NCBI GenBank assembly: GCA_002842345.1
Contig: PHCU01000001.1
Coordinates: 1-64,000 of the forward strand
Source: Betaproteobacteria bacterium HGW-Betaproteobacteria-12
Lineage (GTDB): Bacteria > Pseudomonadota > Gammaproteobacteria > Burkholderiales > Rhodocyclaceae
Length of the DNA stretch: 64,000 nt
Direction: 5' to 3'
Part shown: positions 15,042-63,487 of the stretch, one piece after another
Layout of the letters: each line of letters begins with the position of its first letter
How positions within the stretch are numbered: the stretch's first letter is position 1
Position numbers and translations under genes: made by a program
The notes under the pieces: generated by a model
Seen by the model: the letters and a program-made list of their open reading frames with translations, nothing else
The model's database searches: none
What the model was told of the DNA's origin: nothing

Positions 15042-15164
15042 GTTTTTCCCCTTTGAATTGTCGGATCAAGCCGGCAGGCCGAGGCCAGCAGCCATAGCAA
15101 CGAGCAGGATCAATGCGCCATGGCCGATCATCCGGCGCTGGAAGCTTGCGATCACCGCTCCCGC

Positions 15165-17155
15165 TCAGCTGGCCAATTCGGCACGGTTGCGGTACTGCTC
15201 CAGTGCCTCCGGATTGGCCAGGGCCTCGGTATTTTTGACCAACTCGCCATGGACGACCTGGCGCACGGCAATCTCGACGATCTTGCCGCTCTTGGTGCGC
15301 GGAATGTCGCCGACCTGGACGATCCGCGCCGGCACGTGCCGCGGCGTGGTGTTTTCCCGGATCGCCTGGCGGATACGGTCTTCGAGGGCCTTGTCGAGTT
15401 GCACTCCGTCGCGCAGCTTGACGAACAGCACGACCCGGACGTCGCCGGGGCAGTCGGCGGCCAGTTCTGACCGATGACGATGGACTCGACGACTTCGCCG
15501 ACACGATCGACCTGGCGATAGATCTCGGAGGTGCCGATACGTACCCCGCCGGGATTGAGCGTGGCATCCGAGCGCCCGTAGATTATGTAGCCGCCATGCG
15601 CGGTGATCTCGCAATAGTCGCCATGGCACCAGATGCCTTCGAAGCGCGCGAAATAGGCACTGTGGTACTTCTCGCCCTGCGGATCGTTCCAGAAATACAG
15701 CGGCTGGGTGGGGAACGGCCGCGTACACACCAGCTCCCCCTTCTGCTGGCGCACCGGCTGGCCACGGTCGTCAAGAACCTCAACCGCCATGCCCAGCAGC
15801 TTGCCCTGGATCTCGCCACGCCACAGCGGGGTCACCGGGTTGCCACCGACGAAGGAGCCGAGCAGATCGGTGCCGCCGGAGATGGAGGAGAGATGGACAT
15901 CCTTCTTGAAGCTGCCATAGACGTAGTCGTAGCCCTCAGCCAGCAAGGGGCTGCCCGTCGAATAGATGACTTCCACCGAGGCGAAGTCGTGGGTTGCGTT
16001 GGGTTTCATGCCGGCCTTCTCGCAGGCCTCGATAAACTTGGCCGAGGTGCCGAAATGGGTGAAACGCTCGGCCTGCATGTAGTCGAACAGGATGTTGTTG
16101 TTGGCAGCGAACGGGCTGCCGTCGTAAAGCATCAGCGCAGCGCCGGAAGCCAGCCCGGAGGTCAGCCAGTTCCACATCACCCAGCTGCAGGTGGCGAAGT
16201 AGAAGAGGCGGCTGCCCGGATTGATGCCGCCATGCAGTCGATGCTCCTTGAGATGCAGCAGCAGCGCGCCGCCCGCCCGGTGCACGATGCACTTGGGCAC
16301 GCCGGTGGTGCCGGAGGAGAAGACGATGTAGAGCGGATGATCGAAAGGCAGCTGGGCGAATTCGACCGTCGCGACATCGGCGAACGGTGCGACGAAATCG
16401 TCCAGCATCGAGGCTCCGCGAATACCGTCCAGATCCCAGCTCGATGCGATATAGGGACAAACCACCACCTGCTTGACCGACGGCAGCGCAGCAACGATCT
16501 CCCGCACCTTGGACAGTGATTCATGCTCCTTGCCGTTGTAGAAATAGCCATCGGCAACGAAGAGAACGACTGGCTCAATTTGCCCGAAGCGGTCGAGTAC
16601 GCCTTGAGGTCCGAAATCGGGTGACGCCGAACTGAAGATGGCGCCAATGCTGGACGCTGCCAGCATGGCGACGATCGTCTCCGGCATGTTGGGCATGTAG
16701 GCGGCGACACGGTCGCCCTCCTTGACACCGCTGGCACGGAGGGCTGCCGCCAGACGGGCGACCGCCAGGAACAGGTCATCGCGACTAAGGCGCCGTTTGA
16801 CGCGATCCTCGCCCCAGAACACGATGCCGTCTGCCGGACCACGCCGCCGCAGCAGGTTCTCGGCAAAGTTCAGGCGCGCATCGGGAAACCACTGCACCGC
16901 TTCCATGGTGCTGCCTTCGACCAGCACGCGCTCGCCACGCGAGGCCGCAACGACACCGCAGAAATCCCAGAGCGACGTCCAGAATTCGTCCAAATGCTCG
17001 ATCGACCACTGATGCATGTCGTCGAAGCTGGCGAATGAGCGCTGCCACTGTTTCTCGGCCGCCAGACAGAAGCGGGCCATGTTGCTGGCAGCGATGCCAT
17101 TCGCCGAGGGAACCCAGGTCGCTGTGGCTGAATCAAGATTGGTTGGGAGGGGCAT
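15165..17155 (-). pseudogene. Acetoacetate-CoA ligase, frameshifted near 15467
   Basis: N-terminal ~560 aa in ORF 15152-17155 (IVFSSGTTGVPKCIVHRAGG, ISGGTDLLGSFVGGNPVTPLWRGEIQ); C-terminus continues in another frame ([65 protein letters not shown]). One missing base restores the frame. Confidence 0.85.
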
Positions 17156-17268: not shown

Positions 17269-18819
17269 CTAGCTGCCATATTGCGAACGAATCGAGGTCT
17301 TCTTGATCTTGCCGGTCGGCGTCATCGGCAACTGGTCGGCAAAGATGATTTTCTTCGGCACCTTGTAGCGGGAGATCAGGGTCCGGCAATGCTCGAACAG
17401 TTCTTCCTCGGTCACGGTCTCACCGTTGGCCAGGACGACCACCGCCGTCACCCGCTCGCCCCATTGCTCGTCCGGCACGCCGAAGACAGCCGTCATGGCC
17501 ACCGCCGGATGCTTGACCAGCGCCTGTTCGACCTCGGTCGAATAGATGTTCTCGCCACCGGAAACAATCATGTCCTTGGCGCGATCGACGATATAGAACA
17601 GGCCCTCGGCATCCTTGTAGCCGACGTCGCCCGAGCGGTACCAGCCATCCTGCAAGGCGGCCTCGGTGGCCTCGGGCTGCTTCCAGTAGCCCTTGAACAG
17701 GGAAGGTGCGCGCACCAGGAATTCGCCGACGCCCCCCTGCGCTACCTCTTCGTCGAATTGGTCGACGATGCGGATCTCGATCAGCGGCAAGGCCGTACCG
17801 CAGGATTTCAGCTTCTGTTCATCCTCGATCACATGCTGCTCGGGACGCAGCAGGGTCAGCGCCCCACAGCTCTCGGTGGCGCCATAGAACTGCATGAACT
17901 TGCACTTCATCTCGAGGATCGCCCGCTTGAGCACTTGCGAGGTAATCGACGAACCGGCGTACCAGACCATGCGCAGGGAGGAAAAATCGGTGTTTTTTGC
18001 CTCCGGATGATCGAGCAGCATCTGGATCGCCGTCGGCACCAGGCAACAAATGCTCGGCCGGTCCTCGGCGATGGTGCGCAGGACTTCCGGCACGACCAGC
18101 GCCGGCAGGATGGTAATGGTGACGCCGTTGTACAGCGCCTGGACCGTCAGGCCGGTGCCAACCAGATGGAAGTTCGGCATGACGAACATCATCACGTCCT
18201 CGGCTTCCCACTGATAGGCGGGTTCCAGATGCTCGCACAGGCGCATGTAGTTGAGTCCGCCCTGGGACATCTGCACGCCCTTGGGCTTGCCCGTGGTCCC
18301 CGAGGTATACATCAGCAGCGCCGTGTCCTCGGGATGAATCTCGATCTTCGGATCGCCATCCGGCACGCTGGCCAGCAGTTCCCGGAGCGGCGAGGCATCC
18401 GCCGAGGTCGAATCAAAGGGGATCACCGTGAAGCGTGTCGAGACTCGCGACTGTATGTCTTCCAGTAGGCCGGCATATTCCTTGTCGACGAAGACCAACG
18501 GCGTATTGGCGTCGTCAATGACAGCCGCCAGCTCGGCCGCCGAGGCACGCCAGTTCAGCGGCAGCATGGCGCAACCGGCCTTGTTGGCCCCGAACAGCAC
18601 TTCGAGGTATTCGATCGAGTTCTTGCCGAGGAAGGACACGTGCGACAGCCGGGGAATCCCCGTTTTGACGATGGCGTGGGCAACCCGATTGGTCGAGGCG
18701 TCGAGCTCCTGGAAAGTCAGGCTGCGACCATTTCCCTTGAGCGCCGTCTTGGTCGGCGACTTCTTCGCGTGGTAGCGGGGAATGTCAGCCAGCGACTTGA
18801 TGTCTGCATGTAGCCACAT
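17269..18819 (-). CDS. AMP-dependent fatty-acid/aromatic acyl-CoA synthetase
   Basis: 516 aa; LLMYTSGTTGKPKGVQMSQGG, GWYRSGDVGYKDAEGLFYIVDRAKDMIVSGGENIYSTEVEQAL, PMTPTGKIKKTSIR. Confidence 0.93.
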   Translation of the reverse strand: MWLHADIKSLADIPRYHAKKSPTKTALKGNGRSLTFQELDASTNRVAHAIVKTGIPRLSHVSFLGKNSIEYLEVLFGANKAGCAMLPLNWRASAAELAAVIDDANTPLVFVDKEYAGLLEDIQSRVSTRFTVIPFDSTSADASPLRELLASVPDGDPKIEIHPEDTALLMYTSGTTGKPKGVQMSQGGLNYMRLCEHLEPAYQWEAEDVMMFVMPNFHLVGTGLTVQALYNGVTITILPALVVPEVLRTIAEDRPSICCLVPTAIQMLLDHPEAKNTDFSSLRMVWYAGSSITSQVLKRAILEMKCKFMQFYGATESCGALTLLRPEQHVIEDEQKLKSCGTALPLIEIRIVDQFDEEVAQGGVGEFLVRAPSLFKGYWKQPEATEAALQDGWYRSGDVGYKDAEGLFYIVDRAKDMIVSGGENIYSTEVEQALVKHPAVAMTAVFGVPDEQWGERVTAVVVLANGETVTEEELFEHCRTLISRYKVPKKIIFADQLPMTPTGKIKKTSIRSQYGS

Positions 18820-18865: not shown

Positions 18866-19654
18866 TTATTTGCCGCGGAAAACCGGCTTGCGCTTTTCGA
18901 CAAAGGACATGATTCCCTCGCGGGCATCGGCCGTACCGCCCATTCGGGCAAGGGATTGGGCCTCGTCCTCGAGTTGCGCCTCGAAGGGGCGGGCCATTGC
19001 ATTCCCGAACAGCTTGCGGATTTCACCATAGGCGCGGGTTGGCCCCTGGGCGAGCCGCCGGGCCATTTTTTCCGCTTCGGCCAGCAATGTCTCGTCATCG
19101 ACGACGAAATCGACCAGCCCGACCGCAGCAGCCTCCTCGGCCTTGAGCATCTCGGCGCACAGCACGAACCGCCGGGCGCGCGCCAAGCCCATACGGGACG
19201 AAAGAGTGAACGAGGAACCGGCATCGACGCTGTAGCCGATGCTCGAATAGGCCGACCCGAACGAGGCACTGCGTGCCGCATAGACCAAGTCACAGCCGGC
19301 AACCATGCCGACGGCGCCGCCCATCGCGGTCGCATGCACGGCGGCGACAATCGGCGCATCGAGGCGGGCGAAACGGGCCACCCCCATGTGCAACCCGACC
19401 GTCCATTGCTTGATCCTGGCCGGCAGGACATCCAGGTTGCGGGCGAACATCGCGATGTCGCCGCCGACGCTGAAAAATTTCCCCTTGCCCGAGATCAGCA
19501 CCGCACGAACATCGTTGCGGTCGGAAAGCTCGTTGGCGACTTCCGCCCATTCCCGGCAGAAGGCCTCGTTGAAGGGATTGCCGAGATCCGGCTGGTTGAG
19601 CACTACCCGGGCAAGGCCATCTTCGACTTGCAGTTCAATCGATTCGTAACTCAT
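18866..19654 (-). CDS. Enoyl-CoA hydratase/isomerase
   Basis: Start MSYESIELQVEDGLARVVLNQPDLGNPFNEAF; AAVHATAMGGAVGMVAGCDLVYAARSASFGSAYSSIGYSVDAGSSF. Confidence 0.9.
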   Translation of the reverse strand: MSYESIELQVEDGLARVVLNQPDLGNPFNEAFCREWAEVANELSDRNDVRAVLISGKGKFFSVGGDIAMFARNLDVLPARIKQWTVGLHMGVARFARLDAPIVAAVHATAMGGAVGMVAGCDLVYAARSASFGSAYSSIGYSVDAGSSFTLSSRMGLARARRFVLCAEMLKAEEAAAVGLVDFVVDDETLLAEAEKMARRLAQGPTRAYGEIRKLFGNAMARPFEAQLEDEAQSLARMGGTADAREGIMSFVEKRKPVFRGK

Positions 19655-19745
19655 GCGGCGTTTCCTGAAACACTGGTTTGGCACCCGGACGCCTGAGTGC
19701 GGCGCCCCGGGATCTGATTTCGGCCTAAAGGGCCGAACCGTACAT

Positions 19746-20690
19746 TCAAGCAGCGGCCTTTTCGGACAGGTAATCGATATAGGACTTCGGCCAGGACATT
19801 TCCACATGACCGACACCCTTGACACCATCGATCTCGATGCTCATCGAGCCCTCGTTGAGCGTGGCCAGGGGGCTGACCTTGAACTCGAACATGGCGTAGG
19901 TCTTCCCGGTCACCGTGGTCGTCCGCCCGGCGCTGTCAGTGACCACCATCCGGATGCTCTGGTGGAGCAAGCGCGGATCGTGCTCGTAAGAGGTATCGAC
20001 GGCGGTCACTTCGGCAATTTTGCCATCGCGCTGGACATAACCGTGCACCGTGTTCTTGCCCAGGGCGCTGCATTCGAAGACATGGACAGCGACGTCCGGC
20101 GCCGCCTGGGCCTCGAGCCACTTCCAGTGCTGGGCGATGCCCCAGTCGCGGGTACCCCAGGAATGATCGCGATGGCCAAAGGTATCGAAGGGAATTTCGC
20201 GGCCGGCAAAGCGCAGGACACCGCGCACGCGCCCGCTCTGCTCAAAGCGGTCGTTGGCAAACCACTGCGGGCAACCGCCGGCATTCGAGCCATAGTTATA
20301 GGCCGGATGCATGGCCTCGAAGTGGTATTCCAGGCTGCCGCCCTGGCCGATATAGGAGACATCGGCGACCTGCAGCGGCCCACCGTGCCGGACATGCACG
20401 CCGCCGACCCGCCAGTCGTCGAAGCCCTGCTCGCGGGGCACCGGAATGCCATCGACGACTTCGAAAATGGCCTGTTCGCCCACCGCCGGGCCATAAATGC
20501 AGAATGCCGCGCCGGCCTTGCTGTCACCGCTGACCCAGGTATAGACGAAAGCAGCGACGTCGTGCTCGGGCAACTGCAGCATGAACACCAGCGACTCGCG
20601 CGCATTCGGCTTGTCGCTCAGGGAGTGGCGGCGATCGTTGAGCGGATCGAGGAAAAAGGGTTTTGTTGCCGGGTTTGCAGTGTTGCTCAT
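19746..20690 (-). CDS. Lipocalin-like/CrtC-AttH-like protein of uncharacterised family (DUF7064-like)
   Basis: 314 aa; beta-rich, conserved-looking IPFDTFGHRDHSWGTRDWGIAQHWKWLEAQ. Family assignment from memory of the GHRDxSWGxRDW pattern. Confidence 0.6.
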   Translation of the reverse strand: MSNTANPATKPFFLDPLNDRRHSLSDKPNARESLVFMLQLPEHDVAAFVYTWVSGDSKAGAAFCIYGPAVGEQAIFEVVDGIPVPREQGFDDWRVGGVHVRHGGPLQVADVSYIGQGGSLEYHFEAMHPAYNYGSNAGGCPQWFANDRFEQSGRVRGVLRFAGREIPFDTFGHRDHSWGTRDWGIAQHWKWLEAQAAPDVAVHVFECSALGKNTVHGYVQRDGKIAEVTAVDTSYEHDPRLLHQSIRMVVTDSAGRTTTVTGKTYAMFEFKVSPLATLNEGSMSIEIDGVKGVGHVEMSWPKSYIDYLSEKAAA

Positions 20691-21141: not shown

Positions 21142-22317
21142 CTAGTACGCGGCGATCTTTTTGGTTTTCTTCTTGCCCTCGAACAAGCTACGGCCAATCA
21201 GGTATTTCATGATCTCGATCGAGCCGCCGGCAATCTTGACGATGCGTGCATCGGCATAGGCACGGGCGATCGGATATTCCCACATGTAGCCCCAGCCGCC
21301 GAACAACTGCAAACACTCATCGACGACCTTGCAGTGCAGGTTGGATAGCCACATCTTGGCCATGGCGGCATCCAGCGCATCCAGCTTGTTGTTCATGAAC
21401 AGCTCGATGCAGTGATCGGTAAACACCCGCCCGATGACCGCCTCGGTCTTTAGCTCGGCCAGCTTGAACTGGGTGTTCTGGAAATCGGAAATGGTCTTGC
21501 CGAAGGCTTCGCGCTCGGCGGTGTAATCCACCGTGTAGGCAATCACCTCCTCGGCCACGGCAGCGGAGCGGATGGCCTGGGCCAGGCGCTCCTGGGCCAG
21601 CTTGGTCATCATGATGGCGAAACCCTGCCCCTCCTTGCCGAGCATGCTGCTGGCCGGCACGCGCAGATCCTCGAAGAACAGTTCGGAGGTGTCCTGAGCC
21701 TTCAAGCCGAGCTTGTCCAGGTTCTTGCCGCGCTTGAAGCCCGGCAGGCTGGCATCGACCAGGAACAGGGTGATGCCCTTGGCCCCCGCCGCACTGTCGG
21801 TCTTGGTCGCCAGGACCAGCACATCGCACATCTGGCCATTGGAGATGAAGACCTTCTGGCCGTTGATGACGAAATCGTCGCCATCGCGCACGGCACGGGT
21901 ACGAATGTTCTTCAGATCGGAACCGGCATGCGGCTCGGTCATGCCGAGGGCGCCAATCGCCTCGCCGGAGACCATGCGCGGCAACCACTGACGTTTCTGC
22001 TCTTCGGTACCGAAGGACTTGATATAGGTCGCCACCAGATCGGTGTGGATGAGAAAGCCGGGACCGGTAAAGCCGCTCTTGGCCATTTCCTCGAAGACCA
22101 CCACGTCGAAGAGATATTCGAGACCGAGACCGCCGTATTCTTCGTCGATCGTGCAGCAGAGCAGCCCGGCCTCGCCGGCCTTGTGCCACAGATCGCGCGG
22201 CACGATCCCCTGCTCCTCCCACTGGTAGTGGTATGGCCGGATTTCCCGATCGATGAACTTCTTCACCGTATCGCGGAACATTTCATGTTCCTGTCCAAAC
22301 AATTTTCGTTCGATCAT
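21142..22317 (-). CDS. Acyl-CoA dehydrogenase
   Basis: 391 aa; GALGMTEPHAGSDLKNIRTRAVRDGDDFVINGQKVFISNGQMCD, LQLFGGWGYMWEYPIARAYADARIVKIAGGSIEIMK. Confidence 0.94.
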   Translation of the reverse strand: MIERKLFGQEHEMFRDTVKKFIDREIRPYHYQWEEQGIVPRDLWHKAGEAGLLCCTIDEEYGGLGLEYLFDVVVFEEMAKSGFTGPGFLIHTDLVATYIKSFGTEEQKRQWLPRMVSGEAIGALGMTEPHAGSDLKNIRTRAVRDGDDFVINGQKVFISNGQMCDVLVLATKTDSAAGAKGITLFLVDASLPGFKRGKNLDKLGLKAQDTSELFFEDLRVPASSMLGKEGQGFAIMMTKLAQERLAQAIRSAAVAEEVIAYTVDYTAEREAFGKTISDFQNTQFKLAELKTEAVIGRVFTDHCIELFMNNKLDALDAAMAKMWLSNLHCKVVDECLQLFGGWGYMWEYPIARAYADARIVKIAGGSIEIMKYLIGRSLFEGKKKTKKIAAY

Positions 22318-22650: not shown

Positions 22651-23976
22651 TCAGCGCCCCATGCGGCGCAGGGCATCTGGCTGGAAATCGCTCATCCGCC
22701 CCTGGATGCCGAAACGCCAGGGCTGCTTGTAGCGATTGTCCAGACCGGTGGTCACGTAGGCGCCATTGCTCAGGTCGTGCCAGATTTCCAGGCGGTACCA
22801 GGGGACGCCGGCATCGTAGTACTGCACCAGGGCATGGACGCCGGTGCGCCACAGCATGCCCCGCGAATCGTAGGCATCGCTGAGCAGCACCGACCAGCTG
22901 TCCTCGTCGAGATAAAACACGCGCCGGGCGTAGACATGCGACTGGCCAGGCTTGAGCCGGGCCTCGACGACCCATACCCGGTGCAGTTCGTAACGCATCA
23001 GCTCGGGATTGACGGAACCCTTGTGGATGATCTGCTCGACCTCCAGTTTCTTGTCGCCGATGCGATAGCCGTTGTAGGCGACATACATCTCCTTCTTGCC
23101 GAGCAGGGTCCAGTCGTAGCGGTCGGGTGCTCCGTTGTAGCCGTCGTACTGATCGACGACGGCCAGACCGTCCGAGCCGTTCTGCACATTGTCGTAGGCC
23201 AGGTCGGGGGCGCGCCGGACCCGGCGCTGGCCGGCGTTGTAAATCCAGGCCTTGCGCGACTCGGCAACCTGGTCGACCGGTTCATGCACGAGATAGATGG
23301 TGCCGACGAAATCCGGTGGCGAGGTGAAGTAGCCGAGATAGGAAAACAGCCGGTTCGGCATCGACTCGTCGAAATTGGCGTCGTAGATGCGCCGGTCGTG
23401 AAAGCCGATGCGCATGTAGTCGCCATTGTGGCGCACCGAAAAGGCATCGAACGACCGCTCGACGCCACCGCCGAGGTAACGCAACAGGTGATTCCAGATT
23501 GCCTCCAGACCGTTCTTCGGCTGGGGAAAGGGAATGCTGGAGCCGCCGAGATTCTGCACCGCAGAACCGGCCAGCGTGACCTTGCCGGCCTGCGCCCGGC
23601 TGCGCTCGATGACTTCGTCGGGATAGGCGGCGCTGCGCCGTGTCGGGTACACCGGCAGGCGAAAATCGGGATATTTGGCGAGCAGGGCCTGCAGCCCTGG
23701 CGACAGGCGCTCCCGATACTTCTCGGCATTGGCCGCGGTGATGACGAACAGCGGGACATCGTCCGGGAAGGGATCGACATGCGGCATGCCGGCAGCCCAC
23801 CCTTTCGGGGGAGCAGACAACCCGCCCAGCCAGGGCGGGATCGTCCCTTCGGCATTGCCGGCCCGCTCGCCCCCCACCGGCGTCAGTTCGCCCATCTTGC
23901 CGCCGCCATCCGCAAAGGCGGCTGGCGAGAGCATCAAGGCCCAGCAGAGGAGCAGCGACTGCACCAGGCGGCGCAT
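22651..23976 (-). CDS. DUF1329 protein
   Basis: 441 aa, signal peptide; RAGNAEGTIPPWLGGLSAPPKGW, RKAWIYNAGQRRVRRAPDLAYDNVQNGSDGLAVVDQYDGYNGAPDRYDWTLLGKKEMYVAYN. Confidence 0.88.
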   Translation of the reverse strand: MRRLVQSLLLCWALMLSPAAFADGGGKMGELTPVGGERAGNAEGTIPPWLGGLSAPPKGWAAGMPHVDPFPDDVPLFVITAANAEKYRERLSPGLQALLAKYPDFRLPVYPTRRSAAYPDEVIERSRAQAGKVTLAGSAVQNLGGSSIPFPQPKNGLEAIWNHLLRYLGGGVERSFDAFSVRHNGDYMRIGFHDRRIYDANFDESMPNRLFSYLGYFTSPPDFVGTIYLVHEPVDQVAESRKAWIYNAGQRRVRRAPDLAYDNVQNGSDGLAVVDQYDGYNGAPDRYDWTLLGKKEMYVAYNGYRIGDKKLEVEQIIHKGSVNPELMRYELHRVWVVEARLKPGQSHVYARRVFYLDEDSWSVLLSDAYDSRGMLWRTGVHALVQYYDAGVPWYRLEIWHDLSNGAYVTTGLDNRYKQPWRFGIQGRMSDFQPDALRRMGR

Positions 23977-23987
23977 GGGTCGCCTCC

Positions 23988-26414
23988 CTACTTCTTTTCG
24001 CCGCTGCTGCCGGCGCGGAAGCGATCGCCGACGATGAAGGCGGCGAAGGCCGGCAGCAACAGGATGGCGCCGAAGACATTGACCAGGAACATGAAGGCCA
24101 GCAGGATGCCCATGTCAGCCTGGAACTTCAGGGTCGAGAACACCCAGGTCATCACCGACACCGTCATGGTCACCGCGGTAAAGAGCGAGGCGGTCCCACG
24201 CTGCTTCAACGCTTCGACGAAGGCTTCGCTGAGCGAATGATTGCGCTCCTTGATCTCGTGCGACATGCGTTCGAACAGGTAGATGCCGTAATCGACGCCG
24301 ACGCCGACACCAAGCGCGATGACCGGCAGCGTATTCACTTTCACGCCGATGCCGAGCCAGGCCATGATCGCGTTGCACAGCAACGTCACCAGCGCCAGCG
24401 GCAGGATGATGCACAGCGTGATGCGCAGCGAGCGGAAGGTCACCAGGCAGAGCAGGCCGACGGCAGCGAACAGGGTCACGTTGACCCACTTGTCGGACGA
24501 CTCCACCACCTCGTTGGTCGCCGCCATGACACCGACGTTGCCGGAGGCCAGGCGGAACTGCACCTTGTCATTGTCGTTCTCGGCCTTGAAGGCCTTTATC
24601 TGGCCGACGATATGGTTGATCGTCGTCGCTTGGTGGTCGGCCGTGTAGATGGAAATCGGGATCGCCGTGCACTTCGAGTTGCGATACTCGTTGCCCAGGC
24701 GGGTGGCAAAGCCAACCCCTTGGGCGATCTGCTCGACCGTTTCCGGCAACATCCGCCACTTGACCCAGCCTTCGGCGAAGTCCTGCGTCACGGCACTGAC
24801 GAAGCTGGCCAGGCTGCGCACGCTGGTCACCCCGTCGGTCTGGCGCATGGTGAAGTCGAACTTCTCGACCAGTTCCTCGATATCGCGCTGGACGCAGGGG
24901 GAGTCATCCCCCTTGGCCTCGGCGATGACCTGGATCACATCGACACCGATGGCGAAGTTGCTGGTCACCATGTCGACGTCCTGGTTGTAACGCGAACTGG
25001 CGTGCAGTTCCGGAACCCCCCGGCCGAGATCGCCGATCTTCAGATCGCGTGCCTGCCAGACGCCGACGGCGGTCAGGGTCGCAGCGATAGCCAGCGGCAA
25101 CAGCGCGCCGCGCTTGGTCGCCAGCGCGCCCATGCGTTCCCACAGGGCATAGCCGGCGGTTTCGTTACCGCGAAACTTGCTGGCCTCGGCGGAGGTGAAG
25201 CGCATGTAGGACAGCAGGATCGGCAGCAGCACCTTGTTGGTCAGGATCATGACGGTGACGCCGATGGTCGCCGTGATCGCCAGTTCGCGGACGATTTCGA
25301 TCTCGACCAGGCCGATCACCATGAAACCCAGGGCATTGGCCAGCAGGGCCGTGGCGCCGGGGATGAACAACTTGAGGAAACAGTTCCGCGAGGCGGTGAC
25401 GCCGTCGGCGCCGGCCAGGGTCTCCAGCTTCCAGGCATTGGTCATCTGCACCGCATGCGACACGCCGATGGCAAAGATGAGGAATGGCACCAGGATGGAC
25501 ATCGGATCGAGGCCCAGCCCGAACAGGGGCAGCAGGCCGAGCAGCCAGACCACCGGAATGATCGAGGCGACCAGCGCACACGCCGTCAGCATGAACGATC
25601 CCGAGTACCAGAGCAGCAGCGCAGCGGTGATCACGAAGGCCACCAGGAAGAAAATCACGACGCTGGATGCGCCCTTGGCGATATCCGAAGTCGACTTGGC
25701 AAAGCCGATGATGTGCACCGTCACCAGGCCGTTCTCGTACTTGTTGCGGATTTCTTCCAACTTGCCGCCGACGACACGCAGGTCGAGCCGCTCGCCGGCA
25801 TTGCTGCCGCTGTTCTGCAGCGTCGCCACGACCATCGTTGCGGTCATGTCGGCAGAGACGATGCGCCCCACCCAGTCAGACTTCAGAATGTTCAGGCGGA
25901 CCAGTTCCATTTCCTCCGGCTTGCCGGAGAAATCGGCCGGCACGAGATTGCCACTCTTGAAGCCCTCCTCGACCACCTCGTTGTAGCGCACATTGGGCGT
26001 AAACAGCGAAGTCAGCGAACTGCGCTCGACACCATCAACATAGAAGACGTCTTCGGTCACCTGCTTGACGACATCCATCACTTCCTTCTGGAAGATATCG
26101 CCCTTCTTGACCTTGATCGCCACCAGGACCTTGTCGGCCCCACCGAAATCCTCCTGATAGTCGAGGAAGGTCTTCATGTATTCGTGGTTCAGCGGGATCA
26201 TTTTGGTGAACCCGGCGGTGACCTGCAGTTGCATGGCGAAATAGCCAAGAACGACGGTCAGCAGGATGCCGCCGATCAGCAAGGCACGGCGCCAATGGAA
26301 TATCGCGTAGGCCACCTGTCCGATAAGGCCCCGGAACTCGTCGGGGCGAAACTCTCCGTGGATTTCCTGGTGTCCTGCGTCGGCCTTCCCGGCCTGGTTT
26401 TTATCTCGGGTCAA
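23988..26414 (-). CDS. RND/MMPL-superfamily transporter
   Basis: 808 aa with two repeats of TM helices and large loops; LGVGVGVDYGIYLFERMSHEIKERNHSLSEAFVEALKQRGTASLFTAVTMTVSVMTWVFS. Confidence 0.92.
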   Translation of the reverse strand: MTRDKNQAGKADAGHQEIHGEFRPDEFRGLIGQVAYAIFHWRRALLIGGILLTVVLGYFAMQLQVTAGFTKMIPLNHEYMKTFLDYQEDFGGADKVLVAIKVKKGDIFQKEVMDVVKQVTEDVFYVDGVERSSLTSLFTPNVRYNEVVEEGFKSGNLVPADFSGKPEEMELVRLNILKSDWVGRIVSADMTATMVVATLQNSGSNAGERLDLRVVGGKLEEIRNKYENGLVTVHIIGFAKSTSDIAKGASSVVIFFLVAFVITAALLLWYSGSFMLTACALVASIIPVVWLLGLLPLFGLGLDPMSILVPFLIFAIGVSHAVQMTNAWKLETLAGADGVTASRNCFLKLFIPGATALLANALGFMVIGLVEIEIVRELAITATIGVTVMILTNKVLLPILLSYMRFTSAEASKFRGNETAGYALWERMGALATKRGALLPLAIAATLTAVGVWQARDLKIGDLGRGVPELHASSRYNQDVDMVTSNFAIGVDVIQVIAEAKGDDSPCVQRDIEELVEKFDFTMRQTDGVTSVRSLASFVSAVTQDFAEGWVKWRMLPETVEQIAQGVGFATRLGNEYRNSKCTAIPISIYTADHQATTINHIVGQIKAFKAENDNDKVQFRLASGNVGVMAATNEVVESSDKWVNVTLFAAVGLLCLVTFRSLRITLCIILPLALVTLLCNAIMAWLGIGVKVNTLPVIALGVGVGVDYGIYLFERMSHEIKERNHSLSEAFVEALKQRGTASLFTAVTMTVSVMTWVFSTLKFQADMGILLAFMFLVNVFGAILLLPAFAAFIVGDRFRAGSSGEKK

Positions 26415-26473
26415 AGTCTTGATCCTTCCTGATACTCAGAGCGTAGCCGGACACGAATATCCGCTGTCGCCGT

Positions 26474-27490
26474 TCATTTTTCCTGCATCCGCAGGGTGCC
26501 GGTAGAGAGATAGCCCACGTACAGCACGCCACCGTCCTTGGTCAGGCGGCCGCGCGCCAGGGGCAAGCCTTCCGGCGCCTTGCCCAGGGTGAAGCTCTGG
26601 CCGTGATCCTTGCTGATGGCAATCAGGCCGTTGTTGCCGACGAGCACAACCCGCCCTGTCGGATCGACCCAGCCGCCATTGATGGCACTGGTCGAGGGAA
26701 TGACTACGCTCGTCCAGCTGGCTCCGCCATCCGTCGAACGAAAGATCTTGCCGCGCATGCCGAAAACCAGCAGCGAGCCGTCAGGTGGTGCCACGGCGCC
26801 AAAATACGAACCTTCGTAAGGCGAGGAAAGCTCACTCCATGTAGTCCCTTCATCAGAAGACATGGCCAGGGTTCCTGTTTCGCCGACGAGGAGCAATTTG
26901 TCGCCGAATTCGATGACCTGGGAAATATGGCGGTCGAAGTCCTCACGGATGACCGGCGTCTTCTGCCAGGTCTTGCCCGCATCGGAGGATTCCAGATACA
27001 TACCGAAGGCCCCCCAGGCGATGAGCTTGCCATTCTTGCGGGCCAGCAGGCCGAGGATGGCATCCGTACCGATTTCCGGTACCGGTACCATTTGCCAGGT
27101 CTGTCCGGCATCCTCGCTGCGCATCACTGTCCCGCCATGGCCGACGGCAACCGCCACGCTGGCCGAGTGGAAGGCCACCGAGGTCAGGGTGCGATTCGAC
27201 GGCGTACGCACCGCCGACCAACTTTGCCCTTCGTCGGAAGAATGCATGACAACGCCGCGCTCGCCGACCGCCACCATCTTGCCGCCCGCTTCGACAACAT
27301 CGAACAAGGCCGTCTTCTGCGCCTTGATCTGCAATGCGGTTTTGGCCGGCGTTGCCGCCAGGGAGGGCATGGCGGCGGAGGCAAATGAGATTGCCAGTGC
27401 CCCAAGCAGGGATTTGATCATCATGGACAGTCCGTGTGGAAGAGCGGATGGAAGCAGGAACTGCCTCCATTCTCGCAAAAGCTTATGCAT
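26474..27490 (-). CDS. YCF48/BNR-repeat beta-propeller protein (photosynthesis-assembly-factor-like)
   Basis: 338 aa; repeats VMHSSDEGQSWSAVRTPSNRTLTSVAF, VMRSEDAGQTWQMVPVPE, YLESSDAGKTWQKTPV, AMSSDEGTTWSEL, IFRSTDGGASWTSV. Confidence 0.87.
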   Translation of the reverse strand: MHKLLREWRQFLLPSALPHGLSMMIKSLLGALAISFASAAMPSLAATPAKTALQIKAQKTALFDVVEAGGKMVAVGERGVVMHSSDEGQSWSAVRTPSNRTLTSVAFHSASVAVAVGHGGTVMRSEDAGQTWQMVPVPEIGTDAILGLLARKNGKLIAWGAFGMYLESSDAGKTWQKTPVIREDFDRHISQVIEFGDKLLLVGETGTLAMSSDEGTTWSELSSPYEGSYFGAVAPPDGSLLVFGMRGKIFRSTDGGASWTSVVIPSTSAINGGWVDPTGRVVLVGNNGLIAISKDHGQSFTLGKAPEGLPLARGRLTKDGGVLYVGYLSTGTLRMQEK

Positions 27491-27511
27491 TGGCTGAACG
27501 GGCGTGATTTA

Positions 27512-27544
27512 GCTGATCCCGCGATCTAATACCGCGGGATCAGC
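27512..27544. terminator. Strong intercistronic hairpin
   Basis: GCTGATCCCGCG (27512-27523) / CGCGGGATCAGC (27533-27544), perfect 12-bp stem, 9-nt loop. Confidence 0.65.
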
Positions 27545-27549
27545 AGTGA

Positions 27550-28905
27550 TCAGCGCTGACCCCGGCGGCGGATGGCGTCCACCTGGAAATCAGCCTGCTT
27601 GCCCTTCTGGTTCCACTGATAGACCGGCGTCTTCCGTTCGTTGGAGACTGAGGTCACGATGAAGTTGCCGTTGACCAGATCGGTATTGATGAACGGCGCC
27701 TGGAACATCACGCCCGCATCATAGGCCTGGACCAGATGGTAGGCATACGAACGCCACAGGTTGCCACGGCCATCGTAGCCATCGGCCAGGGCAACTGTGT
27801 TGCTGTCCTCGTCGATGTAGAAGGTGCGCTTGGCCAGGACATGGGACATACCCGGCTTCAGCGTGGCCTCCACCACCCAGACCCGGTGCAGCTCATAGCG
27901 CTGCAGCTCCGACTTTACCGAGCCCTTGTCCAGCATATCTGCATACTTCAGCTTCGGATCCTGCAGCTTGTAGGCGTTGTAGGGAATGTAGATTTCCTTC
28001 TTGCCCAGCAGCTTCCAGTCATAACGGTCCTTGGCGCCCTGGAAACCCCAGTAGTCGTCGGTGGTCCGCATGCCTTCAGTGCCATCATCGACGTTGTCGT
28101 AGGCCAGGTCCGGCGCACGACGCACGCGGCGCTGGCCGGCGTTGTAGATGTGGGCGACGCGATTGGCGATGGTGTAGTCGACCGGATCCTTCACCAAGTA
28201 GATGGTACCGACCAGCGTCGCCGGCGCATCGTAGAGACCGAAGAAGGTGAACACGTTGTTCGGTTCACGCGGCTCCATGTTCTGCCCTTGCACCATGTCC
28301 TCGCAGAAGCCGACGCGATAGTAGTCGCCGTTGGCCCGGGTCGGCAGCCAGTCACGGCAGGCCTTGTAGCCGCCGAAGTATTTCGTGGTGTGGTTGTACA
28401 TGGCCTCGGCGCCTGTCTTCGGGTTCGGGAAGGGCACGCCGGGAACGTCGTAGTTCTTGATGCTCAGGCCTTCGAGCTTGGCCTTGCCGGCCTGCGCCTT
28501 GGTCGCATCATAGACAGCCTGCGGGTTGGCGAAGGTGCGGTGTGTCGGGTAGACATTGACGGAGAAGGTCGGAAACTTCTTGATCATCGCCACCGTGCCG
28601 GCGGAGAGCTTGTCCTTGTGCTGCTCGACGTTCTGGGCATTGATGGTGAGGATCGGCTTTTCATCCTTGAACGGATTGATGTAGCCCATTTCCGGCTTCC
28701 AGCCGGCTGGCGGCTGGGTCAGCCCGCCGGTCCAGGCCGGAATGGTGCCCTCCTTATTGCCAGCCTTCTCGGCACCCGACGGGGTCAGATCCTTGCCGAG
28801 ACGATCGAGTTCGGCCGCGGACATTTCCGCAATTGCCGGTGCGATGCCGGCGACCATGAATGCCATCGACGTAGCGGCGGCGAGTAACTTAAATCGTTTG
28901 TTCAT
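27550..28905 (-). CDS. DUF1329 protein (paralogue of 22651-23976)
   Basis: 451 aa, signal peptide; KAGNKEGTIPAWTGGLTQPPAGWKPEMGY, RVAHIYNAGQRRVRRAPDLAYDNVDDGTEGMRTTDDYWGFQGAKDRYDWKLLGKKEIYIPYN. Confidence 0.9.
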   Translation of the reverse strand: MNKRFKLLAAATSMAFMVAGIAPAIAEMSAAELDRLGKDLTPSGAEKAGNKEGTIPAWTGGLTQPPAGWKPEMGYINPFKDEKPILTINAQNVEQHKDKLSAGTVAMIKKFPTFSVNVYPTHRTFANPQAVYDATKAQAGKAKLEGLSIKNYDVPGVPFPNPKTGAEAMYNHTTKYFGGYKACRDWLPTRANGDYYRVGFCEDMVQGQNMEPREPNNVFTFFGLYDAPATLVGTIYLVKDPVDYTIANRVAHIYNAGQRRVRRAPDLAYDNVDDGTEGMRTTDDYWGFQGAKDRYDWKLLGKKEIYIPYNAYKLQDPKLKYADMLDKGSVKSELQRYELHRVWVVEATLKPGMSHVLAKRTFYIDEDSNTVALADGYDGRGNLWRSYAYHLVQAYDAGVMFQAPFINTDLVNGNFIVTSVSNERKTPVYQWNQKGKQADFQVDAIRRRGQR

Positions 28906-28929
28906 GTTTGTCTCCTTTATGGTGTTGTG

Positions 28930-30783
28930 TCAGAACGCGGCATTCAGGGTCACGTAATAGAAGCCACGGTCGCGCAGCGGATCGTATTTGGCATCCTTAT
29001 TGAAGAAGGTTGCCCCGACGTCCACCGTATATTTCTTCTGGTAGCTGAATTTCGCGCCCAGGCCGAGCGCCATGCGGTCCTCGAGGAACTGGCTGTCGGC
29101 CGAGTTGCCCTTGACGTCATGCGACCAGAAAACGCTCGGGGTCACCGAAACACCGGAGAACACGTCGTTGTAGGTCACATCCAGCTTGGCCCGGTAACCC
29201 CAGGCGAAGTTGGTCACGTAACCATCCGTATCGCAGCCTGCCGCAGTAGTGTTCAGGCCCGAGGTGCAGGTATTGCCGCCGTAGCGTGCATCGCTGCCGG
29301 GTCCGAAGATGAAGGCACGGTTGTAGCGCAAGTCATTGGCACCGCCGATAGACAGGTTGTTCCACTGAAAACCGGCTTCGGCGATAAAGATGAACTGATC
29401 ACCACCGAGCAACCTGTTGCCGGCCTTGACGGCATTGACCTGCAACTGGTGAATGTTGGCGCGCTCATAACCCGGCAGGTAGCCATTGCCGCCATTAAGG
29501 CCTGCCGAGCTGACGGCACCGTTACCGTAGGGGCCGAACGGAATGGAAACCCCCGGAGCAATGGCCCCGGCTGCACCCAGACCTGAGAGGAGAAGATCGT
29601 TGCCGTCAATTTGCACCGCCACATCGCGGCGGGTGCTCACCTCACCGGCAACGGACCAGCCCAGAATATTGGTCGATGCACTCACACCAAAGGCCTTGAT
29701 CGCCTCCGGATATTCCCACATCACATCGAACGGCATGCCATTTTGTGCCCTGCCATTGGCCAGATTGACGATCGAGACATTGGGGGTACGCGCGTGGTAA
29801 CGCATGCCGTAGATGCCGAACTCGGTATCCAGCGCATCGACGTTAAAGCGGTAGGCCAGACCGAATTGCCCGGAGTTACTCGGATCCTTGGCATCGATGG
29901 TATGAACGTAGGCGCCCAGCGGCGTGGCGACGTTCTGGCTTTGCCCGGGAACCAGGGTGATGGCGTTGTCGCAGGCGCCCGGATCGCGAGAAATATTGCC
30001 GACCGCGACGGACCAGTAACTGCCACAACCCAGATCGAGCGGCGAGTTTTCATACTTGAGCTGGTAGAAGAACTCCAGGCTGCCGGCGTCGCCCAGGCTC
30101 TGGTTGGCGTAGGCAATCGGCACCGGCAGGAAGACTTCCTTCAACTGCGCGCCCGGTTTGTGGAAGGACGGGACGTCGATCGGGTTGATCTGGTTCAGGC
30201 CCTGGACGAAGAGGCTCTCGCCCCAGTTCACCACCTGGTTGCCAAGACGGACCTGCAACGGCTTGCCGGCAATATCCCAGGTGTTATAGACATAGGCATC
30301 GAGGAGTGCGACGCCATCGTAGCGGGAGAGATTCTCAAAACCGCGGTCGGACAGCGGGGCGTTGCGGTAACCGTTGTTCTGGTTGCCATAATGTACGTCC
30401 TGGTGATTCAGGGTGTAGTCATACCAGGCCTTGGCACGGATCAGCGCCCCCATGCTCCCCTTCTGCACCTGGAGTTCGGTGAACCACTTGACCTGGGTGG
30501 TGAACTGATCGCCCTTCTTGTAGTTCACATTGCCTTCATCGACGGTATTCGGCGCCCGACCACCCGACAAACCGGCATGGGCGCCGCTGGCAGCTGAATA
30601 AAGATCCTTGTCCGGATTATTGGCGCGCCAGGCAGTACCCAGCGAAACCGAGTTTTGCCAACTCCCTGTCCAACCATCGCCAAACTCGAAATCCACCGCA
30701 TTTGCCTGGCCAGAAAAGGCCGCGGCCAATGCGGCAGCGACGCCACTGACCACCAGCCCCGTGCTACGTTTTTGAATATTCAT
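28930..30783 (-). CDS. DUF1302 outer-membrane-like protein
   Basis: Start MNIQKRSTGLVVSGVAAALAAAFSGQANAVDFEFGDGWTGSWQNSVSLGTAWRANNPD; QVRLGNQVVNWGESLFVQGLNQINPIDVPSFHKPGAQLKEVFLPV; C-terminal aromatic (YVTLNAAF). Confidence 0.88.
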   Translation of the reverse strand: MNIQKRSTGLVVSGVAAALAAAFSGQANAVDFEFGDGWTGSWQNSVSLGTAWRANNPDKDLYSAASGAHAGLSGGRAPNTVDEGNVNYKKGDQFTTQVKWFTELQVQKGSMGALIRAKAWYDYTLNHQDVHYGNQNNGYRNAPLSDRGFENLSRYDGVALLDAYVYNTWDIAGKPLQVRLGNQVVNWGESLFVQGLNQINPIDVPSFHKPGAQLKEVFLPVPIAYANQSLGDAGSLEFFYQLKYENSPLDLGCGSYWSVAVGNISRDPGACDNAITLVPGQSQNVATPLGAYVHTIDAKDPSNSGQFGLAYRFNVDALDTEFGIYGMRYHARTPNVSIVNLANGRAQNGMPFDVMWEYPEAIKAFGVSASTNILGWSVAGEVSTRRDVAVQIDGNDLLLSGLGAAGAIAPGVSIPFGPYGNGAVSSAGLNGGNGYLPGYERANIHQLQVNAVKAGNRLLGGDQFIFIAEAGFQWNNLSIGGANDLRYNRAFIFGPGSDARYGGNTCTSGLNTTAAGCDTDGYVTNFAWGYRAKLDVTYNDVFSGVSVTPSVFWSHDVKGNSADSQFLEDRMALGLGAKFSYQKKYTVDVGATFFNKDAKYDPLRDRGFYYVTLNAAF

Positions 30784-30947: not shown

Positions 30948-32114
30948 TCAATATGACTTGGGCAGATCGAGCACCTTCTCGGCGATAAAGCACATGATCA
31001 GTTGTTCGGTGATCGGCGCCAGGCGGGTCACGGTGACTTCGCGCAGCAGGCGTTCGACGTGGTATTCCTTGGCATAGCCGAACCCGCCGTGGGTCATCAC
31101 CGCCTGTAGCGCCGAGTCGTAGCCGGCCCGAGCACCGAGGAACTTGGCCGTATTGGCTTCCGCACCGCAAGGCTTGTCGTTGTCGTACAGCCAGGCGGCC
31201 TTCATCGCCATCAGCCAGGCGGCTTCTAGCGCCATCCAGCGTTCGGCCAGCGGATGCTGGATACCCTGGTTCTGGCCGATGGGCCTGTCGAAAACGGTCC
31301 GTTCCTTGGCATAGCGGGTCGCGCGGCGCAGGGCGTCCTGGCCGATGCCGATGGCTTCCACGGCGATCAGGATGCGCTCCGGGTTGAGGCTGTGCAGGAC
31401 ATACTTGAAGCCCTTGCCTTCCTCACCGACACGGTCGGACTCGGGAATGAACAGGTCATCGATGAAAATGGCGTTGGAGTCGACGGCCTTGCGTCCCATT
31501 TTCGGGATCTTCTTGACCTCGATCTTCGAACGATCCAGGTCGGTATAGAAAATGGTGATGCCGTCGGTCGGGCGCGCGCAATCCTCAAGCTTGGTCGTCC
31601 GGGTCAGCAACATGATCTTGTTGGCAACCTGGGCGGTCGAGGTCCAGACTTTCTGCCCACGTACGATGTAGCCGCCGGGAACACGCTCGGCAAAGGTCTT
31701 GATGGCGGTGGTGTTGAGGCCGGCATCCGGCTCGGTAAAGCCGAAGCAGCACTGGTCCTCGCCGCTGATCAGGCGCGGAATCCAGCGCTGCTTCTGCTCC
31801 GGCGTACCGAAGACAACGATCGGGTGCGGCCCGAACAGGTTGATGTGCACCGTCGAGGTAGCGGCCATGCCGCCGCCATGCGAAGCCACCTCGTGCATCA
31901 TCACCGCCGCCTCGGTCACCCCGAGGCCGGCGCCGCCATACTCGACCGGCATGGTGATGCCGAGCCAGCCGGCATCCGCCATGGCGCGATGGAACTCGCG
32001 GGGAAACTCCCCGTCTTCGTCGCGCTGCAGCCAGTAGTCGTCGCCAAAACTGCGCATGACTGCCGCCACGCCGTCGCGAATGGCTTCATGATCCGAATTG
32101 CTAGAAAAATCCAT
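30948..32114 (-). CDS. Acyl-CoA dehydrogenase
   Basis: 388 aa; CCFGFTEPDAGLNTTAIKTFAERVPGGYIVRGQKVWTSTAQVANKIMLLTRT, VMTHGGFGYAKEYHVERLLREVTVTRLAPI. Confidence 0.93.
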   Translation of the reverse strand: MDFSSNSDHEAIRDGVAAVMRSFGDDYWLQRDEDGEFPREFHRAMADAGWLGITMPVEYGGAGLGVTEAAVMMHEVASHGGGMAATSTVHINLFGPHPIVVFGTPEQKQRWIPRLISGEDQCCFGFTEPDAGLNTTAIKTFAERVPGGYIVRGQKVWTSTAQVANKIMLLTRTTKLEDCARPTDGITIFYTDLDRSKIEVKKIPKMGRKAVDSNAIFIDDLFIPESDRVGEEGKGFKYVLHSLNPERILIAVEAIGIGQDALRRATRYAKERTVFDRPIGQNQGIQHPLAERWMALEAAWLMAMKAAWLYDNDKPCGAEANTAKFLGARAGYDSALQAVMTHGGFGYAKEYHVERLLREVTVTRLAPITEQLIMCFIAEKVLDLPKSY

Positions 32115-32157: not shown

Positions 32158-33033
32158 TCATGAAAGGCCGGCCTGGGCCAGGGTTTTCATCGCCTGCACC
32201 AGATGCGGACGGTCGTACATTTTTCCGTTGAGCCCCACCACGCCGGTTCCCGGCGCCTCGGCGAAGGCGGCGACGATTGCACGCGCGACGCCGATATCCT
32301 CTTCGCTCGGGGTGTAACAGCGATTGATGACATCGACCTGGTCGGGATGGATGGCAATGCGCCCGAGAAAGCCGCGCCGCCGGGACAGCAGGCAATCGCG
32401 CTCGAGGCCGGCGGCATCGCGGAAATCGCCGTACAGCGTATCGACCGCCTGGGCCTCGGCCGCGGCCGCGGCATACAGCGCACCGGAGCGCGCCTGCACG
32501 TAGGCGGCCGACAGTTCGCCGTCTTCCTCGCGGTTGCTGATCGAGCCGAGCGCCGCCGCCAGATCCTCGGCGCCCCAGGTTATCCCCACCAGGCGCGGTG
32601 GCTTGCTGGCATAGCTGTGCAGATTAAGCATGCCGGCGGCCGTTTCGGTGGCCACGACAACCACCTTGATCGACTGCGGCGACAGACCTGCCCGCACTTC
32701 CAGAACATCCAGGTAGTGGCTCAGGCGAAGCACGTCGGCGGCACCATCGGCCTTCGGCAGGACGATGCCGTCGAGGCCCTCGCCGACCACCTGCGCCAGA
32801 TCCGGCAAGGCATCGGCGGTGCTCAGCGGGTTGATCCGGACGAAGCCCTTCCAGCTCCGCTGCCCGCAGGTCGCCGCCAGATGCTCGGCGGCCATCCGGC
32901 GCGCCAGCGGACGACGGCTTTCGGCCACCGAGTCTTCAAGATCGAGGATCAGCGCATCGGCTGACGAGGCGACGGATTTCTGCAGCTTCTTCTCGCTGTC
33001 CGCCGGCACGAAAAGCATCGAACGTAGCTTCAT
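32158..33033 (-). CDS. HpcH/HpaI-CitE-like CoA ester lyase
   Basis: Start MKLRSMLFVPADSEKKLQKSVASSADALILDLEDSVAESRRPLARRMA; GFLGRIAIHPDQVDVINRCYTPSEEDI. Confidence 0.9.
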   Translation of the reverse strand: MKLRSMLFVPADSEKKLQKSVASSADALILDLEDSVAESRRPLARRMAAEHLAATCGQRSWKGFVRINPLSTADALPDLAQVVGEGLDGIVLPKADGAADVLRLSHYLDVLEVRAGLSPQSIKVVVVATETAAGMLNLHSYASKPPRLVGITWGAEDLAAALGSISNREEDGELSAAYVQARSGALYAAAAAEAQAVDTLYGDFRDAAGLERDCLLSRRRGFLGRIAIHPDQVDVINRCYTPSEEDIGVARAIVAAFAEAPGTGVVGLNGKMYDRPHLVQAMKTLAQAGLS

Positions 33034-33494
33034 GCCAGCGGCTTCCGCAGCATCAGCGCCTGACGAACACAGATGCACACCACTTCGTTGTGCTGGTTGA
33101 GCCCCTGGTGCCGGAAAGTGACAATCCCCTGCTCCGGGCGCGAGCGACTGTCGCGCTTGTCGACGACGGTCGTCACCGAGCGGATCGTGTCGCCGGCGAA
33201 CACCGGCTTGGGAAACAGCACTTCGCTCATGCCCAGATTCGCCACCGTCGTCCCCAGGGTCGTATCCTGAACCGTCAGCCCGATGACCAAACCAAGCGTG
33301 AAGATGCTGTTGAACAACGGACGACCGAACTCGGTCTGCTTGCAGTACTCCGCATCGATATGAATTTGCGCGGGGTTGTAGGTAGCGCCGCAGAACCAGA
33401 TGTTCTCCGCCTCAACCAGCGTGCGCCGGATCTCGTGCTCGAAGACTTGCCCTGCTTCCAACTGATCGTAAAATTTGCCAGCCATGCTTTGCAT
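33030..33494 (-). CDS. MaoC-family dehydratase
   Basis: 154 aa; KFYDQLEAGQVFEHEIRRTLVEAENIWFCGATYNPAQIHIDAEYCKQTEFGRPLFNSIFTLGLVIGLTVQDTT; start codon overlap with the lyase gene. Confidence 0.9.
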   Translation of the reverse strand: MQSMAGKFYDQLEAGQVFEHEIRRTLVEAENIWFCGATYNPAQIHIDAEYCKQTEFGRPLFNSIFTLGLVIGLTVQDTTLGTTVANLGMSEVLFPKPVFAGDTIRSVTTVVDKRDSRSRPEQGIVTFRHQGLNQHNEVVCICVRQALMLRKPLA

Positions 33495-42746: not shown

Positions 42747-43997
42747 ATGCGCACTGCCGCACTGACCAAGGCAATCCTGCTCCCGGCAATCCTCGCCCCG
42801 GGGCTGGCGCTGGCCACCAACGGCTACTTCTCCCATGGCTTTGGCGTCAAATCGCAGGGCATGGCCGGAGCCGGCATCGCCCTCCCCCAGGACGGGCTTG
42901 CGGCGGCGATCAATCCGGCGGGAACGGCTTTCGTCGGTAACCGGGTCGACTTGGGGATGGTTCTGGTTCGGCCGCAACGCAGCGCTGAAATCAGCGGCAA
43001 TCTGGCCGGCATGAACGGCGACTACGCCGGCAACGACACGCGGAATTTCCTGGTTCCGGAGATCGGCTACGTCGAACAACTGAGCCCACGGCTGGCCGCC
43101 GGGGTCGCCGTCTATGGCAATGGCGGCCTCAACACCGATTATGGGAACAATCCGTTCCGCGCCCTCGGGGCGACCGGCGCCGCCGGCGTCAATCTCGAAC
43201 AACTGTTCATTTCGCCCTCGCTGGCCTGGAAGCTGGCCGACGAGCACGCCGTCGGTCTGGCGCTCAATATCGCCTACCAGCGCTTCGAGGTGGAGGGCAT
43301 CGCCCCCTTTGCCGCCGCCTCGTCCTCACCGGGCAACTTCACCAATCGCGGGGTCGATAGCGCCCTCGGCTGGGGCATCCGCCTCGGCTATACCGGCAAA
43401 CTGAGCGACGACCTGACCCTGGGCCTGACCTGGGCCTCGAAGACGCGTAGTGGTGAACTGGACAAATACAAGGGCCTGTTCGCCGAACACGGCGGCTTCG
43501 ATATCCCGGCCAATTACGGCCTCGGCCTGTCCTGGGCGGCGACCCCGGCGCTGACGCTGGTTGCCGACGTCAAGCGCATCGAATACGGCGACGTCAAGGC
43601 GCTCGCCAACCCGATCGGCAACCTGTTCGCCGGCCATGCCTTCGGCAGCGCGAACGGCCCGGGGATGGGGTGGCGGGACATTACGGCGGTCAAGCTGGGC
43701 ATCCAGTATCGGCTCGCCGAGTGGACTCTGCGTGCCGGCTACAGCCACTCCTCGCAGCCGGTTCCGTCCGACCAAACCTTGCTCAACATCCTGACGCCCA
43801 GCGTCGTCAAGGACCATGTCAGCGTGGGCGCCACCTGGCAGTCGAGCCGGAGCGGCGAGTTGAGTCTGGCCTACACCTATGCCCTGAAGAACACCGTGCA
43901 CGGCCGCAATTCCATTCCCGGCGCCTTCGGCGGCGGCGAGGCCGATCTCACCCTGAAAGGCGACATCATCGGCATCGCCTACGGCTGGAAGTTCTGA
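42747..43997 (+). CDS. FadL/OmpP1-family outer-membrane transporter
   Basis: 416 aa, signal peptide; [43 protein letters not shown]-terminal GIAYGWKF. Confidence 0.92.
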
Positions 43998-48404: not shown

Positions 48405-48405
48405 C

Positions 48406-50021: not shown

Positions 50022-50046
50022 GATCGGTTCGAATGCCGCCGGGCGC

Positions 50047-61951: not shown

Positions 61952-61964
61952 AGAGGAAATTCAT

Positions 61965-62144: not shown

Positions 62145-62229
62145 CCGCCAGGCGACGACGGCACGAGCGACAGCCTTTTCGCCAGCCCGCACCGTCATCG
62201 CCAATCTACCCCCCGGAGAACAACACCCC

Positions 62230-63459: not shown

Positions 63460-63487
63460 GCCAGCCATTCACCCCACCGAGGCTCTC

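Follow-up and report, generated by a model that had tools for sequence, protein, structure and literature searches.

Five genes occupy positions 22651-30783 of the minus strand of the window, by which we mean the whole stretch of 64,000 nucleotides analysed here from Betaproteobacteria bacterium HGW-Betaproteobacteria-12. Together they probably encode an AmeABCD-type trans-envelope transporter of apolar hydrophobes, situated in an island for the degradation of monoterpenes or monoterpene-like compounds. Little is understood of how bacteria transport apolar hydrocarbons and terpenes across their two membranes, and the locus gives the DUF1302/DUF1329/YCF48/RND module, which is widespread but has hardly been studied, one catabolic context. 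The present analysis adds to the published description of this system its placement in a monoterpene-type island, a variant with two candidate carriers, a predicted LolA-type fold with the shuttle model that it suggests, and an altered TM4 site in the pump. The predicted carrier fold, the altered ion-coupling site and the presence of two carriers per pump are testable, and two Pfam families of "unknown function" could receive a better annotation from existing work.

An AmeABCD-type cassette with a second DUF1329 gene

The five open reading frames are intact and arranged head to tail, with gaps of 24, 59, 74 and 11 bp from the DUF1302 gene to the last gene of the row. The DUF1302 gene (28930..30783, minus strand; PF06980, E 3.1e-145) encodes a 617-residue outer-membrane β-barrel protein homologous to AmeA, and is followed by the gene of a periplasmic DUF1329 protein, the AmeB homolog with a predicted LolA/LolB-like fold, hereafter B1 (27550..28905, minus strand; PF07044, E 5e-124). 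The third product is a periplasmic YCF48/BNR-type β-propeller homologous to AmeC (26474..27490, minus strand; PF14870, PSII_BNR, E 3.3e-17; Sortilin-Vps10, 1.5e-17) and the fourth an HAE3-like RND/MMPL transporter homologous to AmeD (23988..26414, minus strand; PF03176, MMPL, 1.8e-18, with sterol-sensing and Patched matches). Beyond the last gap, 11 bp past the pump gene, lies the gene of a second DUF1329 protein, B2 (22651..23976, minus strand; PF07044, E 4.8e-136). Judged by eye, all four non-pump proteins begin with a Sec-type signal sequence, and the C-terminal residue of the DUF1302 protein is a phenylalanine, typical of outer-membrane barrels. Together with the MMPL/RND match, these features agree with the envelope location proposed in the first-pass annotation, whose gene identities, order, strand and coordinates are borne out by the reading frames and the Pfam matches. 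A scan for promoters and terminators gave matches no more numerous than in shuffled sequence.

The first-pass annotation knew of no mechanism for such a module, a statement that has to be withdrawn, since the module is already described as AmeABCD, the "apolar monoterpene efflux" system of Castellaniella defragrans 65Phen, which was reported in 2018 together with its deletion (PMC6394551); it has also been noted for an anaerobic benzene degrader (PMC13101534). AmeA is a DUF1302 protein, AmeB a DUF1329 protein, AmeC a member of COG4447 and AmeD an HAE3 RND protein (PMC6394551). By its sequence the window cassette is an ortholog of AmeABCD and belongs to this described system: the four families and their order are identical, and the identities to the C. 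defragrans proteins lie between 49% and 72% (DUF1302 52%, B1 70%, propeller 49%, pump 72%). The pump is 77% identical to its Thauera terpenica counterpart, and in the pump tree it falls in a clade of eight sequences (SH-aLRT 100) that holds, among others, those of Denitromonas ohlonensis (locus L001), T. terpenica 58Eu (L005) and C. defragrans (L006). The D. ohlonensis and T. terpenica loci resemble the window in cassette and flanks, with pumps 75-77% identical to ours, but are devoid of a second DUF1329 gene after the pump gene; that of D. ohlonensis has a distant one on the opposite strand. The best NCBIfam match of the pump is the HAE3 model TIGR00921 (E 2.4e-45), with a score of 154.8 bits that lies under the cut-off of 351.9. 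AmeD was placed in a distinct branch within HAE3 (PMC6394551).

A second relative is found in Pseudomonas putida, whose genes PP_0765, PP_0766, PP_2018 and PP_2019 likewise encode a DUF1302 protein, a DUF1329 protein, a periplasmic protein and an RND pump, show correlated fitness, and growth on Tween 20 depends on them; unlike in the window, they are split into two separate pairs, and the context is a surfactant ester instead of a terpene (PMC10866462). DUF1329 by itself has been linked to growth on phenanthrene in Delftia, as cited in the benzene-degrader study (PMC13101534).

The order of the genes is conserved well beyond these relatives. A scan for the pump alone, with one genome per species, yielded 80 loci; in 72 of them the pump gene is preceded by a YCF48-like gene, and the contiguous same-strand row DUF1302-DUF1329-YCF48-RND is present in 28, many of the contigs being truncated. 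When 75 genomes of the class were sampled independently with DUF1329 as the starting point, each of the nine top-scoring DUF1329 genes, all from different genomes, was preceded by DUF1302 and followed by YCF48 and RND genes. Weak DUF1329 matches of about 265 residues, which occur in many genomes with no cassette around them, probably represent LolA-like relatives and were excluded. The co-occurrence analysis thus refutes a random association, and the idea that unrelated envelope genes became neighbours by chance retains a practically negligible probability. Several such systems coexist within one genome: two more complete but diverged sets, in the order YCF48-RND-DUF1302-DUF1329 and with pumps 28-29% identical to that of the window, and one partial set at a contig end are present in the same assembly (L124, L125 and L123, on contigs C130, C237 and C215).

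The second DUF1329 gene sets the window apart. Among the 80 loci, only that of an uncultured Burkholderiales (L004) has a complete cassette whose pump gene is immediately followed by a second DUF1329 gene; in the tree B2 is the sister of this second protein (support 100/100), and B1 groups with the first DUF1329 protein of the same locus (99/91). A recent tandem duplication was rejected, B1 and B2 being just 48% identical and belonging to different clades. This divergence, and the conservation in B2 of all 31 family-invariant alignment columns, designate it as an old, functional-looking second copy, which would probably serve as a diverged second carrier adding capacity or substrate range. PF17131 exceeds its cut-off in B2 alone, not in B1. 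Further DUF1329 copies are found near the cassettes of two other loci (L020 and L132).

The monoterpene-type island around the cassette

The association with terpenoid catabolism that had been suggested for such gene sets is sustained by the neighbourhood: ten genes, in a nearly kept order, are common to the window and to the monoterpene islands of C. defragrans, T. terpenica and Denitromonas. This shared run corresponds to CDM25256 to CDM25265 of C. defragrans (PMC4109377, Table 1). It lies on the minus strand of the window and begins with the genes of a MaoC-like hydratase (33030..33494; PF01575; 72-73% identical in the three reference loci), an HpcH/HpaI citrate-lyase-like protein (32158..33078; PF03328; 59-62%) and, upstream of the cassette, an acyl-CoA dehydrogenase that occupies the same place in all three (30948..32114; 88-90%). 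Beyond the cassette it continues with an enoyl-CoA hydratase (18866..19828, minus strand; PF00378; 60-65%), an acyl-CoA ligase homologous to the perillate-CoA ligase GeoC (17269..18819, minus strand; 56% to L006:15203-16765, the place of GeoC according to PMC4109377, Table 1) and an acetoacetyl-CoA synthetase-like protein (15152..17155, minus strand; PF00501 and ACAS_N; 72-74%). The window thus has MaoC, HpcH, acyl-CoA dehydrogenase, acetoacetyl-CoA synthetase, enoyl-CoA hydratase and GeoC-like genes in common with the flanks of the C. defragrans locus.

It differs from this locus by three insertions after the pump gene, namely the second DUF1329 gene, an MrcB-like dehydrogenase gene and a DUF7064/DUF7065 gene, and by the relocation to the end of the run of the acetoacetyl-CoA synthetase gene, which directly follows the pump gene in the three reference loci. 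The MrcB-like acyl-CoA dehydrogenase (21142..22317, minus strand) is 87% identical to L006:94-1266 and 79% to L002:4328-5530, and the position and annotation of its gene match those of MrcB, CDM25254 (PMC4109377). The DUF7064/DUF7065 protein is encoded inside the run (19746-20690, minus strand), and a relative (42% identical) is found beside the cassette of L004 as well.

Other genes of the window give clues to the probable growth substrate. The closest solved structure to a cytochrome P450 encoded at 60668-61951 (plus strand) is P450terp (E 1.6e-114), the α-terpineol hydroxylase. The P450 gene is followed by those of a ferredoxin reductase and of a ferredoxin close to terpredoxin and putidaredoxin (63488-63808), and the whole set (60668-63808, plus strand) is likely to form a complete terpene-hydroxylating P450 system. 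An outer-membrane protein of the FadL/TodX family (42747-43997, plus strand; Toluene_X, E 2.3e-31) is a probable hydrophobe uptake channel in the island. Near 40-44 kb lie genes for a tyrosine phosphatase and a molybdopterin-binding oxidoreductase, both of types that are also recorded for the C. defragrans island (PMC4109377). Elsewhere in the genome, contig C209 (L122, 30000-41844) carries genes for a GeoA homolog (64% identical), an aldehyde dehydrogenase, BadH-like and BadI-like proteins, a crotonase, a MaoC protein and an MFS transporter; this group resembles the geo/mrc set of C. defragrans and may represent a second piece of a ring-cleavage pathway. Its link to the window is likely, not certain, because the genome is a draft with an estimated contamination of 6.9%. 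A search of the genome for ldi, carried out without a positive control, gave no match. The P450terp-like set, the FadL/TodX protein and the mrc/geo-like genes elsewhere in the genome support the placement of the cassette in an island for the degradation of a monoterpene or monoterpene-like substrate.

Two gene pairs accompany the island. An APH-type phosphotransferase and a small protein with no Pfam match (47205-48957, plus strand) recur as a pair beside the Ame cassettes of L002, which has two APH copies, and of L004. A COX3-like protein and its partner of an unknown family (49431-50778, minus strand) are 40% and 27% identical to the products of adjacent C. defragrans island genes (L006:18058-19517).

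A shuttle model for transport across the envelope

The model we propose for this system starts from the predicted folds of its carrier and barrel. The AlphaFold model of B1 (pLDDT 91.4) matches in Foldseek LolA3 (E 6.6e-15) and the DUF1329-family structure 4z48 (E 3.4e-14), as well as 3bk5 and LolA structures, with 14% identity in the structural alignment to LolA3; DUF1329 is therefore predicted to have a carrier fold of the LolA/LolB type. It differs from LolA and LolB in its length (about 450 residues versus 180-240) and in being paired with an RND protein, with no LolCDE-type partner. The DUF1302 model (mean pLDDT 86.7) matches porin, Occ and AlgE barrels, the best being OccAB1 (E 9e-11), and a porin-type barrel is predicted. 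Profiles and folds were needed to establish these kinships: when DUF1329, the pump and DUF1302 were each compared with the PDB as single sequences, no match was returned.

From these folds, the orthology and the island, we infer cargo binding, direction and energy coupling as follows. The RND protein would take the hydrophobe from the inner membrane or the periplasm, using the proton gradient, and the propeller would dock on the pump or organise it. The LolA-like DUF1329 proteins would then ferry the hydrophobe through the periplasm inside a protected cavity to the DUF1302 barrel, which would pass it through the outer membrane, so that a soluble carrier would stand in for the fusion protein and TolC. 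The most likely role would be export, keeping the membrane level of a toxic growth substrate tolerable.

A mechanical alternative is the one proposed by the AmeABCD authors, a continuous, HAE1-like conduit with DUF1329 and YCF48 in the place of the membrane fusion protein. The four-part make-up and the co-expression of the genes in C. defragrans speak for it (PMC6394551). We consider it very improbable, and favour a soluble shuttle between pump and barrel, because the predicted folds liken DUF1329 to soluble carriers and DUF1302 to porin barrels rather than to a tunnel, and because neither a membrane fusion protein nor a TolC-type outer-membrane factor, the parts of an HAE1 tripartite pump, was found among the neighbours scanned. 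For the P. putida proteins, published co-folding predicts weak contacts of DUF1329 with the pump and with the barrel, and a strong contact of the pump with the periplasmic PP_2018 (PMC10866462).

Concerning direction, a strain deleted for ameABCD grew less well on unfunctionalised monoterpenes, its growth on perillyl alcohol not being lowered, and its CCCP-treated, limonene-grown cells accumulated more Nile Red (PMC6394551). The lower tolerance of the mutant and its accumulation of Nile Red favour export over import, but not decisively: the efflux of Nile Red followed in real time did not distinguish the mutant from the wild type (PMC6394551), and a failed uptake would also reduce growth on hydrocarbons. 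Import, in which the barrel would admit the apolar substrate, DUF1329 would carry it inward and the RND protein would unload or energise the carrier, draws some credit from the bond between the cassette and catabolic genes for hydrophobes. It would also account for a mutant that fails on hydrocarbons and grows on the polar alcohol or aldehyde (PMC6394551), and for the requirement of the P. putida homologs on Tween 20 (PMC10866462). We nevertheless hold it to be unlikely: the higher Nile Red content of the mutant disagrees with it, as does the restoration of growth by acetate up to 5 mM limonene, not above, which is a tolerance phenotype (PMC6394551), and the FadL/TodX-family channel already offers a route of uptake through the outer membrane.

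Known RND proteins with a defined direction are mostly exporters, which again argues against import. Since Tween 20, benzene and other contexts also involve this set, its cargo may extend beyond monoterpenes or may be a lipid. If it were an endogenous lipid or lipoprotein, the module would remodel the envelope under solvent stress instead of moving hydrocarbons. The predicted LolA-type fold of DUF1329 is compatible with this, as are the matches of the pump to sterol-sensing, Patched and MMPL models and, more weakly, to the hopanoid transporter HpnN. Like HpnN and MmpL3, HAE3/MMPL lipid transporters, the pump is a single inner-membrane protein of the RND superfamily with a presumed hydrophobic cargo, and HpnN aligns with the pump profile; neither HpnN nor MmpL3 is known to have DUF1302, DUF1329 or YCF48 partners. 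The chemical unrelatedness of the growth substrates served points the same way (PMC13101534, PMC10866462). The shared run consists of acyl-CoA catabolism throughout and holds no lipid biosynthesis gene, and we regard a lipid cargo as quite unlikely. The transport of hydrophobes with DUF1329 as carrier and the RND protein as energiser, as first put forward, thus stays the best model in view of the LolA-like fold, and what has changed is that the published evidence favours tolerance to, and efflux of, apolar monoterpenes over uptake or lipid transport.

The TM4/TM10 site of the pump

The aspartate of TM4 is conserved as Asp256 in MmpL3, Asp344 in HpnN and Asp407 in AcrB (PMC10466384). In the profile alignment to HpnN and AcrB-type pumps, the motif GVSHAVQ falls on the TM4 motifs GVDF and VVDDA, and the aspartate at this position is absent, with a serine in all 45 aligned rows; HpnN and MmpL3 keep the residue, whereas the Ame lineage has Ser there. 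A Ser-His pair in TM4 and an Asp-Tyr pair in TM10 are invariant in the 45 pumps of the alignment, and both motifs are present in each of the 77 complete pumps of the loci. In the window pump the two sites lie at codons 314-319 and 703-704, counted from 26399. A hydropathy scan of this pump, set against the 12 transmembrane helices and two periplasmic loops of HAE3 proteins, gives overlapping peaks. The alignment suggests a lineage-wide loss of the TM4 aspartate, which the papers cited here do not mention. Proton coupling stays conditional in our model because the aspartate usual for it is missing; ion coupling in the Ame lineage may rest on TM10 alone or on a His-Asp pair.

Tentatively, and with less than even confidence, we suggest that the Ame lineage forms a distinct RND class, which would lack the TM4 aspartate, have Ser-His facing the Asp-Tyr of TM10, and rely on a diffusible LolA-like shuttle and a porin-type barrel in place of fusion protein and TolC, with two diverged shuttles per pump in the present case. 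More distant pump copies have Ser-His or Ser-Asn at the TM4 site, and the Ser-Asn of two paralogs from the same genome weakens a simple His-Asp proton relay as a mechanism for all such pumps.
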